The translations under genes and the position numbers were made by a program. Shown piece by piece: positions 8,667 through 49,170 of a stretch of DNA of 64,000 bases; position 1 is the stretch's first letter, and every line of letters begins with the position of its first letter. The stretch comes from Planctomyces sp. SH-PL62. GTDB lineage: Bacteria > Planctomycetota > Planctomycetia > Planctomycetales > Planctomycetaceae. Below the pieces are notes generated by a model. The model was not told the origin of the DNA. It worked only from the letters and a program-made list of their open reading frames with translations, and searched no databases. The DNA lies in the NCBI GenBank assembly GCA_945893075.1, contig CAMDDX010000002.1:24341-88340 (forward strand). Reading direction: 5' to 3'.

Positions 8667-8671
8667 AAAAG

Positions 8672-8739
8672 AGCCCGACGAATTGAAGGAGACGACGAAT
8701 GAGATCGCATCATTCGTCGTCTCCTTTCATTCGTCGGGC
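8672..8739. repeat. Intergenic inverted repeat (family B, GACGAAT)
   Basis: gcccgacgaattgaaggagacgacgaatg / cattcgtcgtctcctttcattcgtcgggc. Confidence 0.92.
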
Positions 8740-8770
8740 ACTCTCCTGTCCTGAGATCAAATGAAACGAA

Positions 8771-9775
8771 ATGCCCAACTCTCTTCACAAATTGCTCGTC
8801 GTCGGTGTCGGCTCAATCGGTGAGCGACATTTGCGCTGCTTTCTGACAACCGGCCGGGCTGAGGCTGTCTTCGTCGAGGTAAATCCCTCGCTGCGACAAA
8901 CGATTGCCGAGCGATACGGCGTGCCCGGCTTTGCCAGCCTTGAAGAAGCACTGGCGACTCAACCGACACTCGCCGTCGTCGCCGTCCCCGCGCATCTGCA
9001 TATCGAGATCGCGACAAAACTCGCCGAGAGTGGTTTGCACCTGCTCATTGAAAAGCCGTTGAGCACTTCGACGGCTGGCATCGAACGACTGCAACAGATT
9101 GTGTGCGATCGCGGTCTCATCGCCGGAGTTGCGTACGTCTATCGCAGTCATCCGCTTCTGACGGCGATGCGGGTGGCGATTCAGGATGGACGCTGCGGCC
9201 GGCCGGTCGAACTGATCGCCGTCTCCGGGCAACACTTTCCGACGTACCGTCCCGCGTATCGCGACATCTACTACAAAGACCGCACGACCGGCGGCGGCGC
9301 GATTCAAGACGCACTCACGCACGTCATCAATGCCGGCGAGTGGCTGCTTGGACCCGTTCAGCGTTTGGTCGCTGACGCCGCGCATCAAGTGCTGGAAGGA
9401 GTCTCTGTCGAAGACACCGTGCATCTGCTGGCTCGGCATGGCGAGGTCATGGCCAGCTACAGTCTCAATCAGCATCAAGCCCCGAACGAATTCACGCTGA
9501 CGGTTGTCTGTGAACGAGGCGCGATCCGCTGGGAATCGCACCTCAATCGGATGAGCTGGATGACCGCCCCCGGCGGTGAATGGCACGAAGACCGGATCAC
9601 CCCGCTCGAGCGCGACACGCTGTTTGTTCGCCAAGCTAATCAGTTTCTGACGGCCATCGAAGAGGGCGCTCTCCCCGCGTGCTCGCTGGACGACGGCCTG
9701 CAAACGTTGCGAGTCAACCTCGCCGCACTGGCCAGCGCCGATGGTGCCGGCTGGCAGACGATTCATGTGACGTAG
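8771..9775 (+). CDS. Gfo/Idh/MocA family oxidoreductase
   Basis: 'LLVVGVGSIGERHLRCF...AVPAHLHIEIATKLAESGLHLLIEKPLS'. Confidence 0.9.
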   Translation: MPNSLHKLLVVGVGSIGERHLRCFLTTGRAEAVFVEVNPSLRQTIAERYGVPGFASLEEALATQPTLAVVAVPAHLHIEIATKLAESGLHLLIEKPLSTSTAGIERLQQIVCDRGLIAGVAYVYRSHPLLTAMRVAIQDGRCGRPVELIAVSGQHFPTYRPAYRDIYYKDRTTGGGAIQDALTHVINAGEWLLGPVQRLVADAAHQVLEGVSVEDTVHLLARHGEVMASYSLNQHQAPNEFTLTVVCERGAIRWESHLNRMSWMTAPGGEWHEDRITPLERDTLFVRQANQFLTAIEEGALPACSLDDGLQTLRVNLAALASADGAGWQTIHVT

Positions 9776-9824
9776 CCGCGTTCGCCAGAACGCGGGAACC
9801 CCGCACTCTGGCGAGTGCGGCTAC
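9772..9824. repeat. Intergenic paired hairpin (family A, GTAGCC/GCCA)
   Basis: gtagccgcgttcgccagaacgcggg / cccgcactctggcgagtgcggctac; arms individually self-complementary. Confidence 0.92.
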
Positions 9825-9826
9825 AT

Positions 9827-10381
9827 TCACGCGCTCGGCGGCGAGATGCCAAAATCGGTGATCGAGAGGAGCGAGCGGAACGGCAGGCGGCGTTCGGCGA
9901 AGTTCTTCGCTCCGCCTTCCATGCGATCGACGATGCCGACGACTTGAATGACCTCGCAGCCGAATTCGACGATGCGATCGACTGATTGCAGCGCGCTGCC
10001 GCCGGTCGTCACGACGTCGTCGATGATGACCACCTTCATGCCAGGGACGACGGGGCCTTCGACGTATTTGTTCGTGCCGTGACCTTTCGGCTCTTTGCGG
10101 ACCAGGAAGCCGCACAGTTCGCGCCCGCGAGCCGCCGCTGCGACGAGCACTCCGCCGATGATCGGGTCGGCTCCGATCGACATCCCGCCGATCGCGTCGA
10201 ATGACACATCGGCCAGCAGGTCGAGCAATCCTTCGCTGACCAGCCGCAGTCCCTCCGAGTGCAGCGTGATCTGCTTGCCGTCGAGGTAGTAGCTCGACTT
10301 CTTGCCGCTGGCGAGCGTGAAGTCGCCGAACTTGAGGGCGCGTTTGTGGAATAACTCAATCAATTGCTGGCGGTCGTACAT
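9827..10381 (-). CDS. pyrE: Orotate phosphoribosyltransferase
   Basis: 'FTLASGKKSSYYLDGKQITLHSEG', PRPP motif 'KVVIIDDVVTTGGSALQSV'. Confidence 0.93.
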   Translation of the reverse strand: MYDRQQLIELFHKRALKFGDFTLASGKKSSYYLDGKQITLHSEGLRLVSEGLLDLLADVSFDAIGGMSIGADPIIGGVLVAAAARGRELCGFLVRKEPKGHGTNKYVEGPVVPGMKVVIIDDVVTTGGSALQSVDRIVEFGCEVIQVVGIVDRMEGGAKNFAERRLPFRSLLSITDFGISPPSA

Positions 10382-10389
10382 GGCGGTCC

Positions 10390-10569
10390 TTTGGAGTGCT
10401 GCGCGTCAACACAGCTTTGGATTCTTTCACTCGTAGCCACGCTCGCCAGAGCGTGGGCAGGTTTGATCGTTCACCCACGCTCTGGCGAGCGTGGCTACGT
10501 CTCGATGCAAACCACTCACCCGCAGCATCCAAAAAATCCAAAGCGGTGTCGAGCCACCGCACTCCAAAG
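10390..10569. repeat. Composite nested inverted repeat: family C arms enclosing a family A element
   Basis: outer tttggagtgctgcg...ctttggatt / aatccaaagcggtgtcgagccaccgcactccaaa; inner cgtagccacgctcgccagagcgtggg (10432-) / cccacgctctggcgagcgtggctacg (-10499). Confidence 0.9.
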
Positions 10570-20656: not shown

Positions 20657-20763
20657 GTCTCCGCAGTTCCAAGGAGTCGCTGTGGGATTCGTTCGTCGAT
20701 TCGCGGCGGTAGTATAGCAGCGAGTTGTCATGAGCCGACACTCGCCCACGAGCAGGAAGGGAA

Positions 20764-20841
20764 GAGCCCGACGAATGAAAGGAGACGACGAATACGATTC
20801 ACTCGTCAAACATTCGTCGTCTCCTTCCATTCGTCAGGCTC
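20764..20841. repeat. Intergenic inverted repeat (family B, GACGAAT)
   Basis: gagcccgacgaatgaaaggagacgacgaat / attcgtcgtctccttccattcgtcaggctc; lies between divergent genes. Confidence 0.92.
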
Positions 20842-21230: not shown

Positions 21231-21237
21231 CCAACCT

Positions 21238-33776: not shown

Positions 33777-33861
33777 CAAGTCACCTGGGCGTGGCGGATG
33801 TGAGGGCCATGATTGATTCCTGGGATGTTTGTCTTACAAAGTCGCGGCGGCCGAGTGAGTC

Positions 33862-33927
33862 GCCACGCTCGCCAAGAGCGTGGGGAAATTCGCGAGGCGC
33901 AAAACCCACGCTCTTGGCGAGCGTGGC
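33862..33927. repeat. Intergenic paired hairpin (family A)
   Basis: gccacgctcgccaagagcgtggg / cccacgctcttggcgagcgtggc. Confidence 0.92.
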
Positions 33928-33967
33928 TACATTGAAACTCAGCGACCCGCCACTTGGGCTTGTCCCA

Positions 33968-42449: not shown

Positions 42450-42484
42450 GACAGCCTTTTGAGTGGACCCGCAGAGTTCATTTG

Positions 42485-42550
42485 GTAGCCGCGTTTCGCC
42501 AGAACGCGGGTTTTCGGCCATTCGCCCGCGTTCTGGCGAAACGCGGCTAC
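42485..42550. repeat. Intergenic paired hairpin (family A), 26-bp perfect arms
   Basis: gtagccgcgtttcgccagaacgcggg / cccgcgttctggcgaaacgcggctac. Confidence 0.93.
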
Positions 42551-42557
42551 CCAGAGG

Positions 42558-43565: not shown

Positions 43566-43589
43566 GACTGGCAGCCTTTTGAGGAAGGT

Positions 43590-43656
43590 GCCCGACGAAT
43601 CGAAGGAGACGACGAATGGGGGGCCAGCATTCGTCGTCTCCTTCGATTCGTCGGGC
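43590..43656. repeat. Intergenic inverted repeat (family B), 29-bp perfect arms
   Basis: gcccgacgaatcgaaggagacgacgaatg / cattcgtcgtctccttcgattcgtcgggc. Confidence 0.93.
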
Positions 43657-44610
43657 TCATTTCACATTCGCAAACACATGATCGAGCGCGGCCTTCACAT
43701 CCAAGCGTCGAAAGGTGAGCTTAGTGCCGGGGTCTTCAACAGCCGAACCGGTCTTCTGAAAGATCGCCAGCATCGCTTCGGGGAGGTTCTTGCCGTCTTG
43801 CTTCCAATCGTAGCCCGACTTCTCGATCGCCTCGCGCAGCAACAAGACGGCTCCGCAAACGATCGCGTTGGACGATGACGTCGCTGATGCCGGCACGACG
43901 AGATCAATCTTTGAGTGGCGATCGAGATACACCTCGTCCTTCCCGGACCGGACGGCACCGATGGCGAAGCAGTTCGGCTGACAGGCCGGCCATGAGATCC
44001 CTTTCGTGAAGGCGTGATTGCCTGCCGGTGCGCTGACCCAGATGCCCAGCTCGCGCAGTCGTTTCAGCTTGTTGTCGATCTCGGTCGCGACCGGCTGGCC
44101 GTGTTCCAAATCGTCGACCGGAGCCAGATTGATGGCGGTGATGCGGTACTTCTGATGATGGTCGATCACCCATTGCATCCCGGCCGCCAGCGTCTTGCTG
44201 TCGGAGACGTTGCAATGACAGCACTCCAACGCCCGCACAACCGCCACTTGATTGTTGAACGCGACGCCGAGCTTCCCTTTGTAATTCACCGATGAGGGAA
44301 TCCCGATCGTCGAACCGTGATAGCCGCGTCCCTCGTGCTTGGGATCGTTGTCTCCATCGACGCTGTCATACGACACGAGCACCTTCGGCAACTCGCCATC
44401 GGATTGCGACCACTCCGGCATCGACAGCTTGCAGCCGTCATCCAAGAGCGCCAGCGTTTGCCCTTTGCCAAACGAGAGCTTGCCGGCGTACGCCTCCCAA
44501 GCGTCGGTCACTCGCGCATGCTTGAAGGCCGGCGGATCAGCGGGCTCGGCGGAGAGCGCCGGGCGGCTCATCAGTGCAAACAACAAGAGGATGCCGAAAA
44601 GAAATCTCAT
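43657..44610 (-). CDS. Subtilisin-like (S8) serine peptidase, secreted
   Basis: Signal peptide; 'TLALLDDGCK', 'GRGYHGSTIGIPS', 'PASATSSSNAIVCGAVLLLREA'. Confidence 0.75.
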   Translation of the reverse strand: MRFLFGILLLFALMSRPALSAEPADPPAFKHARVTDAWEAYAGKLSFGKGQTLALLDDGCKLSMPEWSQSDGELPKVLVSYDSVDGDNDPKHEGRGYHGSTIGIPSSVNYKGKLGVAFNNQVAVVRALECCHCNVSDSKTLAAGMQWVIDHHQKYRITAINLAPVDDLEHGQPVATEIDNKLKRLRELGIWVSAPAGNHAFTKGISWPACQPNCFAIGAVRSGKDEVYLDRHSKIDLVVPASATSSSNAIVCGAVLLLREAIEKSGYDWKQDGKNLPEAMLAIFQKTGSAVEDPGTKLTFRRLDVKAALDHVFANVK

Positions 44611-45874: not shown

Positions 45875-46615
45875 ATGATTCGCAACTTGGTGCTGCTGAC
45901 CGTTCTCTTGGTTCCTGTCTGTGTCATTGGAGCCGATGCTCCGGTGACGGCTCCGCCCGAAGCGGGTGGGATGAAGGCGTTGTTCAATGGCAAGGATCTC
46001 ACGGGGTGGGACGGCGATCCTCGGCTGTGGAGCGTCAAAGACGGTGTGATCCACGGCGAGACGACTGAGGCAAATAAGGCCAACGGGAACACGTTCCTCA
46101 TTTGGAAGGACGGCACGACGAAAGATTTTGAATTGCGGCTGTCGTTCCGTTGCAACGCGACCAACAACTCCGGGATTCAATATCGCTCGAAGCACATCAC
46201 CGACGGCAAGGTCGGCAACCAATGGGTCGTGGGGGGTTATCAGCATGAACTCCGCAACGAGAGCAAACTGCCTGATGTCGCGGGCTTCATCTACGACGAA
46301 AGAGGGAAGCGCGGACGCATCTGTCTCGTGGGCGAGCAAGCGACGTGGGAAAAAGAAGGCAAGAAGCTCATCAAGAAAGACCTGATCGATCAGGCCGGAT
46401 ATGAAAAACTCTTCAAGCTCGATGACTGGAATGACGTGGTGATCATCGCCAAGGGGAATCACATCCAGCATTACCTCAACAACACGCTGATCCTGGACTT
46501 CACTGACAACCATCCGGAGCTCGCGCTGACGGAAGGCATCCTGGCCGTGCAACTGCACGCCGGAAAGCCGATGTGGGCGGAGTTCAAGAACATTCGCATT
46601 CGCGAATTGAAGTAG
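45875..46615 (+). CDS. DUF1080 (3-keto-disaccharide hydrolase-like) protein
   Basis: 'GGMKALFNGKDLTGWDGDPRLWSVKDGVIHGETTE', 'NSGIQYRSK', 'LAVQLHAGKPMWAEFKNIRIREL'. Confidence 0.93.
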   Translation: MIRNLVLLTVLLVPVCVIGADAPVTAPPEAGGMKALFNGKDLTGWDGDPRLWSVKDGVIHGETTEANKANGNTFLIWKDGTTKDFELRLSFRCNATNNSGIQYRSKHITDGKVGNQWVVGGYQHELRNESKLPDVAGFIYDERGKRGRICLVGEQATWEKEGKKLIKKDLIDQAGYEKLFKLDDWNDVVIIAKGNHIQHYLNNTLILDFTDNHPELALTEGILAVQLHAGKPMWAEFKNIRIRELK

Positions 46616-46727
46616 CCGTACTCGCCAGAGTGCGGGCTCTCCTTGGAACGGCCAATGGCCGCAACCAAAGAGGACTGCTTCACCATCATTTCCAATCCAG
46701 AAATGCCTTTCGTGGAATCCTCAATTC

Positions 46728-46892: not shown

Positions 46893-48170
46893 TCACTTGC
46901 TCGGCAGCGTCAGCGTGGACTGCGGGTGGTTGGCATATGGCCAATCGGTGGGCTGATACGACACCGCCAGTTCGGGAGTCTCCAGCCGCTTTCCGCCGTC
47001 AGCGAGGCTGTGCATGACTCGATCGAGAATGCCTGTCGTCAGCAACGTGCGTTCGATGGGATAGACGGCTCGGCCGGTGTGGATTGTTTCGTCGATGGCA
47101 TGCACGAGGTACGCGAAGTGGCCGTAAGGAGCTCCGTCCTGCAACTTGAACCACGTCGCCAGCGGTTCGGCTCGGCCTTTGAGCTTCACGGCAAACGCCT
47201 GGTATCTGGCGAGTCCGTTGGCCATGACGACGGCGGACTTCAGTCCGTCGCGGTGCTGCAACAGATACACGGCCGAGTTGTTCTTGGAGGTCCACTTGTC
47301 GGAGTCTTGCGGCGATCCCGGCAACTGCTTCAGTGCCGCAGCGAAAAGTTCGCTGGACCAAAGGCCGGCGGACTCGGCCTTGCGGATATCGTCCTCCGAG
47401 ACCGTTTGCACCGAGGCCACGCCGGTTTCGCCACCACGACGACGTTCGATCATGCACTGATGCGCTTCCAGAGCGTGAAAGCCGTAGGACTCCAAACCGC
47501 CGTAGCCGATCGTCAACGCGGCTTCGATCTCGCAATCGCGCGGCAGTTCCAGCGGAGGCTCTCGCCACGCGACCGGGACCGAGGAGCCCGCGATGAACGG
47601 GAAGTTCATCTTCTTCGCGGTCTCGACCATGAAGAGTGCGTCTTCCCAGCGATACGACAGGTGCTTGTCGTTGAACACGGGGACCGATTTTTTGCAGCGG
47701 CGAAACGTGGCGACGATCTCATCGAAGAAACGCCGGCGCGGGTACTGATGCTGCTTCGTGTCGGGAGTGAAGGGATAGTCGCCGTGCTCGCCGATGCTCA
47801 GCACACCCGCGACTTGGATTTGGTTTGTTCCCAGCGTGATCGCTTCGTCGATGGACTTGGCGAGCCGAAAGCCATGCTTCTCGGCCAGCGGACGGCTGAG
47901 ATCGCCGGAGGGAACTTGATCCGTGTAGAGCGAGACGAGCCGCAAGTCCGGCCCCTTGCCGCCGTCCTGCTGAAAGCCTTCCAAGATTTTTCCGACGATC
48001 ACATCGGCGTGCGTGTTCTTACGATAGGCCGTGACGACCGCCGCGACCGGCAGCTTCTCTCTGGCCGGGGCGAATCCGCGCGCCGTCGAAACAAACCACG
48101 AAGGAAGCGTCGCTCCTAACGCTGTCGAAAGACCAACCTTCAACAGATCGCGTCGGTTGGGTGCAGTCAT
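46893..48170 (-). CDS. Planctomycetal hypothetical protein with TAT-like leader
   Basis: 'NRRDLLKVGLSTALGATLPSWF', long conserved-looking ORF. Confidence 0.75.
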   Translation of the reverse strand: MTAPNRRDLLKVGLSTALGATLPSWFVSTARGFAPAREKLPVAAVVTAYRKNTHADVIVGKILEGFQQDGGKGPDLRLVSLYTDQVPSGDLSRPLAEKHGFRLAKSIDEAITLGTNQIQVAGVLSIGEHGDYPFTPDTKQHQYPRRRFFDEIVATFRRCKKSVPVFNDKHLSYRWEDALFMVETAKKMNFPFIAGSSVPVAWREPPLELPRDCEIEAALTIGYGGLESYGFHALEAHQCMIERRRGGETGVASVQTVSEDDIRKAESAGLWSSELFAAALKQLPGSPQDSDKWTSKNNSAVYLLQHRDGLKSAVVMANGLARYQAFAVKLKGRAEPLATWFKLQDGAPYGHFAYLVHAIDETIHTGRAVYPIERTLLTTGILDRVMHSLADGGKRLETPELAVSYQPTDWPYANHPQSTLTLPSK

Positions 48171-48213
48171 CGGGCACCTCGCTTCGTTAAGGCGAACGGC
48201 AGGACTTTTCTTC

Positions 48214-48267
48214 CCGTAGCCACGTTCGCCAGAACGTGGGAACCCACGCTCTGGCGAGCGTGGCTAC
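48214..48267. repeat. Intergenic paired hairpin (family A) with covarying stems
   Basis: cgtagccacgttcgccagaacgtggg / cccacgctctggcgagcgtggctacg. Confidence 0.93.
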
Positions 48268-48270
48268 GTC

Positions 48271-49170
48271 TCACTTCTTGGTCAGCTTTTGAAATCGCAT
48301 ATTCCCGACCTCGGCGACGAACAGGTTGCCGGCCTTATCAAAGGCCAGCATGTGCGGCGTATCGAATTCACCCGGAGCCGTTCCCTTTTTGCCCCAGCGT
48401 TGTTGGACTTTGCCAGACGCATCCAGACGAAGCACTTGATTCGCTACGGCATCCGCGACGAAGACGTGGCCGTCGCCGTTGATCGCGATGCCATACGGAG
48501 CGAAGCCCGGCCATTGTTCGAGGAATTGGCCTTCAGCATCGAACAGTTGAATCCGTTCGTTCTCGCGGTCACCGACCAGCAGGCGGCCTTTCGAGTCCAT
48601 GATGATCGCGTGCGGCAGATCGAACTCGCCGGGCTTCGTCCCCTTCGTGCCCCATGATTTGAGGAAGCGTCCGGCCGATGAGAACTTCATCACTCGGCTG
48701 TTGCCATAGCCGTCGCTGACGAACACGTCGCCGTTGGGAGCGAACGCGATATCGGTCGGTCGGTCGAACTCATCATTGCCCGTCCCCGCTTTGCCGGTGC
48801 CCAAGGCCAGCAGCAGTTTTCCGGTGGGATCAAACTTCAAGACTCGGTGCCGGCCCATGTCCGTGACCCAGACGTTGTCCTGACGATCGACTCGCAGTCC
48901 GTGAGGTGTGCCGATGTGGTCATCGCCCCACGCTCGCAACAGCTTGCCGGTTGCATCCACGCAGAGCAGCGGACGCGGACCGCGATGAAATAGATAGATC
49001 TCCCCTTTGCTGCTCGAGGCCACTGCCGAACATTTTCCGAGGACGACGTCGGCCGGCAACTTCGGGAAGTCGCCGCGCGACTCGAAGTTGATCGCATCTT
49101 CTGCCGAGGCGGGCTGGCAGAAAATGAAGGGCAGAAAATAGACACAAAGAAGCGCGCTCACAGTTTTCAT
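48271..49170 (-). CDS. NHL repeat-containing protein, secreted
   Basis: 'GTPHGLRVDRQDNVWVTDMGRHRVLKFDPTGKLLLALG' NHL repeats. Confidence 0.9.
   Translation of the reverse strand: MKTVSALLCVYFLPFIFCQPASAEDAINFESRGDFPKLPADVVLGKCSAVASSSKGEIYLFHRGPRPLLCVDATGKLLRAWGDDHIGTPHGLRVDRQDNVWVTDMGRHRVLKFDPTGKLLLALGTGKAGTGNDEFDRPTDIAFAPNGDVFVSDGYGNSRVMKFSSAGRFLKSWGTKGTKPGEFDLPHAIIMDSKGRLLVGDRENERIQLFDAEGQFLEQWPGFAPYGIAINGDGHVFVADAVANQVLRLDASGKVQQRWGKKGTAPGEFDTPHMLAFDKAGNLFVAEVGNMRFQKLTKK

Follow-up and report, generated by a model that had tools for sequence, protein, structure and literature searches.

At positions 48216-48267 of the window, the 64,000-nt stretch of planctomycete DNA analysed here, the element consists of two 24-nt hairpins placed head to head, and both of its outer ends are GTAG. 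Each hairpin is built from GTAG, an 8-bp stem and a GCCA loop, so that the unit reads GTAG-CC....TC-GCCA-GA....GG. The element probably belongs to a family of GTAG-tagged REP sequences that form REPIN-like head-to-head dimers in one planctomycete genus and are spread by a Y1 HUH transposase of the RAYT/IS200 type. Observed are the GTAG foot, the 8-bp stem, the near-fixed loop, the inverted pairing, the quantised spacer, insertion without target duplication, and sites that are occupied in one species and empty in another. The Y1 HUH transposase would act in trans on the single-stranded hairpin and would recognise it by its GTAG, its loop and the pairing of its stem, tolerating most stem letters. 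Paired stem variants would then survive and be amplified, unpaired ones would not, and covariation of the stem positions would be the outcome.

The REP unit and related copies in the window

The first-pass annotation, whose letters and coordinates at 48214-48267, 9772 and 10432 proved correct on re-reading, overlooked the GTAG foot, which is the key to the identity of the element. Since GTAGC precedes every hairpin of the GCCA-loop family found in the window, the stem is counted as 8 bp. With a loop of 4 or 5 nt, the unit falls inside the range of GTAG-tagged REPs (stem 5-13 bp, loop 2-20 nt). The loop had been taken as invariant and is indeed near-fixed as GCCA, except in a recurring GCCAA subfamily, which accounts for nine hairpins of the 717-kb sample and for 7 of 50 listed dimers, and in a few hairpins with GCC, ACCA or GCCGA loops. 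Stem letters vary freely in the four middle pairs (3-6) only, the outer CC-GG and the closing TC-GA hardly at all. An Rfam search of the 64,000-nt window returned no match above the gathering cut-off, and a tRNA search of the window found none. The coordinates of the element, of the other copies of the family and of two neighbouring genes are collected in Table 1.

Table 1. REP arms, dimers and adjoining genes in the window
Feature	Position	Strand	Remarks
Left REP arm	48216-48239	+	GTAG; stem CCACGTTC/GAACGTGG; loop GCCA at 48228-48231
Dimer spacer	48240-48243	.	4 nt (GAAC)
Right REP arm, inverted	48244-48267	-	GTAG; stem CCACGCTC/GAGCGTGG; loop GCCA
Head-to-head heterodimer CCGCGTTC / CCGCACTC	9772-9824	.	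between convergent genes
Homodimer CCACGCTC / CCACGCTC	10433-10498	.	18-nt spacer; inside palindromic repeat 10388-10569
Single arm CCGTACTC-GCCA-GAGTGCGG	46612-46635	+	one T-G pair
GCCAA-loop dimer	33859-33930	.	foot decayed from GTAG to GTCG on the left, GTAG on the right
Dimer with an extra T in both arms (GTAGCCGCGTTTCGCCAGAACGCGG)	42484-42551	.	
Gfo/Idh/MocA-like oxidoreductase gene	8771-9775	+	ends in the 9772 element; named from its own sequence
Orotate phosphoribosyltransferase-like (pyrE) gene	9827-10381	-	runs convergently towards the 9772 element; named from its own sequence

The same sites differ between relatives. The orthologue of the 48214 site is precisely empty in G010 and holds unrelated palindromes in G007 and G003. 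At the site orthologous to 9772, G003 carries the same dimer and G010 a different GTAG dimer; the site of the 10433 dimer is empty in G002, G004, G009, G010 and G011. The palindromic repeat that surrounds the 10433 dimer belongs to the CTTTGGAGTGCGGTG... family, with copies also at 21235, 61040 and 63827, and in G003, G005, G006 and G007 the orthologous site is filled by other sequence. A separate inverted-repeat family, GAGCCCGACGAAT...GGAGACGACGAATG, is found at 8668-8741, 20762-20841 and 43580-43666, and G003 has a copy of it at its orthologue of the 48214 site.

Copy number and distribution

The genome scanned is a planctomycete MAG of 7.57 Mb in 484 contigs, in which the window occupies C2:24341-88340. 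Taken alone, the half-arm pattern GTAGC-N7-GCCA is weak (404 matches in the genome versus 300 for the reversed control); among the first 100 matches listed, most are visibly members of the family. The full dimer pattern, in which the 3' half of each stem was left free, matched 145 times in the genome and its reversed control not once. GTAG stands at the 5' foot of 67 of the 70 GCCA(A)-loop hairpins that were found in 717 kb without requiring GTAG, a proportion that leans upward because the sample was partly picked for holding GTAG-pattern dimers; the window was not selected in this way, and there the sole GCCA(A) hairpin of at least 7 pairs that lacks GTAG has GTCG. Hairpins with GTAG number 216 in the 717 kb, compared with 1-71 for ten control tags, and the genome contains other GTAG families with the loops TCC, CCTA, GCT, TTCC, GTGA, CTCT and TCCT.

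The arms are fully paired in 96 cases out of 100. Mostly whole contigs contained 12 head-to-head dimers, five single arms and no tail-to-tail pair. According to home-made gene calls, 24 of 32 sampled dimers are intergenic, six overlap called genes and two lie at contig edges. The family is present in all 11 genus relatives, in one of seven other genera of the taxonomic family and in none of 11 genomes from the other families of the class; exact matches among named genomes are mostly to planctomycete MAGs, and the host is accordingly read as an uncultured planctomycete.

In several sampled dimers (gene gap -4) the adjacent gene uses the TAG of the REP foot as its stop codon, as at 9772, where GTAG supplies the TAG stop of the gene at 8771-9775; at locus L074, the TAGs of the feet serve as stop for both convergent genes. 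One dimer (L103:9676-9740, G000:C58) lies within a long called ORF, where relatives differ in palindromes or in lengths.

The hairpin as the conserved unit

The two arms are unequal in 31 of 50 dimers. Because the hairpins of these 50 dimers break 4 of 800 pairs, against 110 of 800 for the long repeat, the single hairpin is the conserved unit, and to this extent the earlier proposal of selection for the hairpin over the long repeat stands. The energy of the two-hairpin fold is equal in homodimers (-19.0 kcal/mol) and heterodimers (-19.4 kcal/mol), whereas that of the best, long fold goes from -36 to -25 kcal/mol. The minimum-energy fold of the three window elements is still the long hairpin. 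The long fold is not lost; it is merely not what stays constant. Selection on the hairpin could act via transposition or via the host, or could be mimicked by template-switch or conversion repair, and covariation alone cannot separate these.

That the stems covary is borne out by 58 distinct arms, taken from several members of the genus and from one genome that lies outside the genus; these arms score 0.429 versus 0.178 ± 0.015 (sd) for shuffles, a control that does not preserve relatedness, and at most 0.125 for slid partners. In these arms 92.9% of the cells pair, five pairs have changed on both sides, and the variation sits in pairs 3-6; for many arms the pattern used in collecting them held TC-GCCA-GA and the first C-G constant, so pairs 1, 7 and 8 are not free tests. 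At least nine double changes across the genus follow from the pair types, and the number of copies overstates the number of events because stem subtypes are copied as whole dimers. The claim in the first-pass annotation of compensated substitution is not supported as a change in place: the variants are old subtypes common to the genus, copied as whole dimers, and not changes at the 48214 site.

Probable copying of whole dimers and the search for a transposase

Spacers of different dimers resemble one another more than shuffled spacers do (mean score 6.8 versus at most 4.7), which suggests that the dimers were copied as units; a spacer of fresh host DNA was rejected for the same reason. Spacer lengths are quantised at 4-6 nt or mostly 15-20 nt. 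No target-site duplication was seen at the insertion sites examined and the base before GTAG is commonly C, both of which fit HUH single-strand chemistry, though they do not prove it. As in REPINs, the inverted REP doublet has conserved ends and a less conserved spacer. The whole doublet may be the replicative unit; what was observed are empty versus occupied orthologous sites and related spacers.

In 12 genomes, whose assemblies are fragmented so that a cognate gene could sit in a gap, GCCA hairpins flank none of 92 PF01797 (Y1) loci, and linkage of the REPtron type was therefore not found. The GCCA family is thus an orphan in these genomes, and we infer transposition in trans. Near Y1 genes, four GCCA arms occurred in 322 kb, which is not above chance density, and G011, a member of the genus, has the hairpins and no PF01797 match. 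Eight flagged loci of the genus have a Y1 gene framed by inverted GTAG hairpins from other families, with the loops TTCC, TCCC, TCC, CTTGT, GTCA and TT[TC]A. At one locus (L042), an IS200-like gene (NF033573, 88.8 bits) is placed between GTAG-CCCCAGGC-TTTA and its inverted partner and looks like the autonomous counterpart of a GTAG dimer. This tnpA region (L042:1413-2049, G007:C482), with TTTA and TTCA loops in the inverted hairpins, has more inverted repeats outside. Two further observations concern G000: a RAYT-like protein (L005:1462-2589, C203) has a domain resembling the DnaA C-terminus, by a match to TIGR00362, and a short coding repeat, RGRVYDFSDLAG, inserted in frame; and a repeat of about 160 bp (L102:2500-2680, C33) has some twenty copies in this genome at 85-91% identity.

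Dimers at orthologous loci

A flank-anchored comparison with genus relatives yielded nine orthologous dimer comparisons at six loci. Differences amount to 8/418 in the arms, 40/143 in the spacers and about 14% in the flanks, which are largely coding; the nine comparisons are not independent, several sharing a locus, and the set is biased, since heavily decayed copies would escape recognition. At the flank rate 58 arm changes are expected (p ~5e-18), and when the worst comparison per locus is taken the arms differ at 5/274 (p ~1e-10). The changes between orthologous arms are uncompensated: GTAG has become GTCG or GGAG, and broken or wobble pairs occur in G003 and G009. At C58:16676 a broken T-T pair is common to G000 and G003, which are two species. 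Conservation and decay were seen in the nine comparisons at the six loci, and no compensatory change in place. The dimer of G007 at C58:16676 has different, mostly paired stems and a spacer that does not align, so that it could be an insertion of its own. A GTAG hairpin of another family occupies the corresponding place in a relative both at 9772 and at C33:33079. After insertion, it seems, either host selection or the copying of other arms keeps the arms in place.

What keeps the arms paired

Conservation at orthologous sites speaks against the transposition model, as transposition alone does not explain it. It would be expected if the hosts themselves kept the hairpins by compensatory change for a role at gene ends, either as RNA 3'-end structures or as DNA sites used by gyrase or some other protein of the host. 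This explanation is possible, though we consider it doubtful. It accounts for arms that change far less than spacers and flanks, for the 11 of 24 intergenic dimers that lie between convergent genes (such regions make up 79 of 388), and for the several relatives that carry other palindromes at the same gene ends. It fits poorly with the frequency of empty orthologous sites and with the uncompensated decay of arms in G009 and G003. Terminator-like T-runs are rare beside the dimers (4 of 64 sides), and a search of 48100-48400 gave no terminator-like site; on these counts an intrinsic terminator, a hairpin followed by a T-run, was rejected. A related and somewhat less probable reading is an orphan REP family with no transposase gene of its own, whose arms stay letter-perfect across the genus through a host function or genome-wide copying of arms while the spacer drifts freely.

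Pairing might also be kept by mutation itself, if template switching within the hairpin or the copying of other arms turned single changes into paired ones. The identical extra T in the stem-loop of both arms at 42484-42551 suggests copying of one arm into its partner, and in the GCCAA subgroup the arms are far more alike than the spacers (1.00 vs 0.60). We nevertheless regard this explanation as unlikely: at C31:22078, where the flanks of the orthologous sites have diverged by about 20%, the dimer is still a heterodimer and its orientation is unchanged, which argues against general arm-to-arm copying, and correction of the stem does not account for a fixed foot and loop. That the covariation is a counting artefact of a few founder subtypes copied many times is very improbable. 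Four stems do account for 140 of 159 perfect arms, and one heterodimer, CCGCACTC/CCGCGTTC, for 19 of 50 dimers; yet the score was obtained from distinct arms only and exceeds all shuffles and slides, the five pairs changed on both sides are joined by at least nine further Watson-Crick pair types, and several other GTAG families of the same genome also show alternative paired stems.

Comparison with known systems

With REP dimers from several species of a phylum that has received little study, three questions about REPs become separable: the parts read by the transposase (foot and loop), the purely structural part (mid-stem) and the intactness of REPs after insertion. Whether hosts keep REPs, or REPs persist only by copying themselves, is tested directly when arms are contrasted with spacers and flanks locus by locus.

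The E. coli BIMEs and REPs (group 2) are likewise dispersed inverted REP units with GTAG; unlike them, the GCCA family has neither a bulged stem nor mosaic arrays. In REPINs, compensatory changes occur in the spacer hairpin and the inverted pair is probably the replicative unit (Bertels and Rainey 2011, PMC3116915). The GCCA dimers share with them the inverted REP pairs, conserved ends and variable spacer, and differ in their short spacers (about 5 or 17 nt, whereas GI REPIN ends are 71 bp apart), in that each arm is a complete hairpin, and in that a cognate RAYT was not found in 12 genomes. Linkage to a Y1 transposase gene separates REPtron-linked REPs from the GCCA family, which flanks none in these genomes, while sister GTAG families do.

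The GTAG-tagged REP superfamily comprises head-to-head homo- and heterodimers, subfamilies whose stems use alternative residues that still pair, spacers similar in length and different in sequence, and planctomycete members in R. baltica (Di Nocera et al. 2013, PMC3733652). The GCCA family resembles it in the GTAG foot, the short stem and the head-to-head dimers, and loops of 2-4 nt are found in many families of the superfamily; compared by description, it may be one of the published GTAG-1 to GTAG-24. In group 3 TnpA_REP biochemistry, loop positions and an unbroken stem matter and most stem swaps are tolerated (PMC8266576). The GCCA loop differs from the two loops tested there. Like the GCCA hairpins, the group 3 REPs of Stenotrophomonas and Marinomonas are perfect short palindromes with GTAG, in which specific loop bases are required and a stem mismatch is harmful (PMC8266576). 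It is proposed that such TnpA_REP requirements are the reason why foot, loop and pairing are kept in the GCCA family while the stem letters vary.
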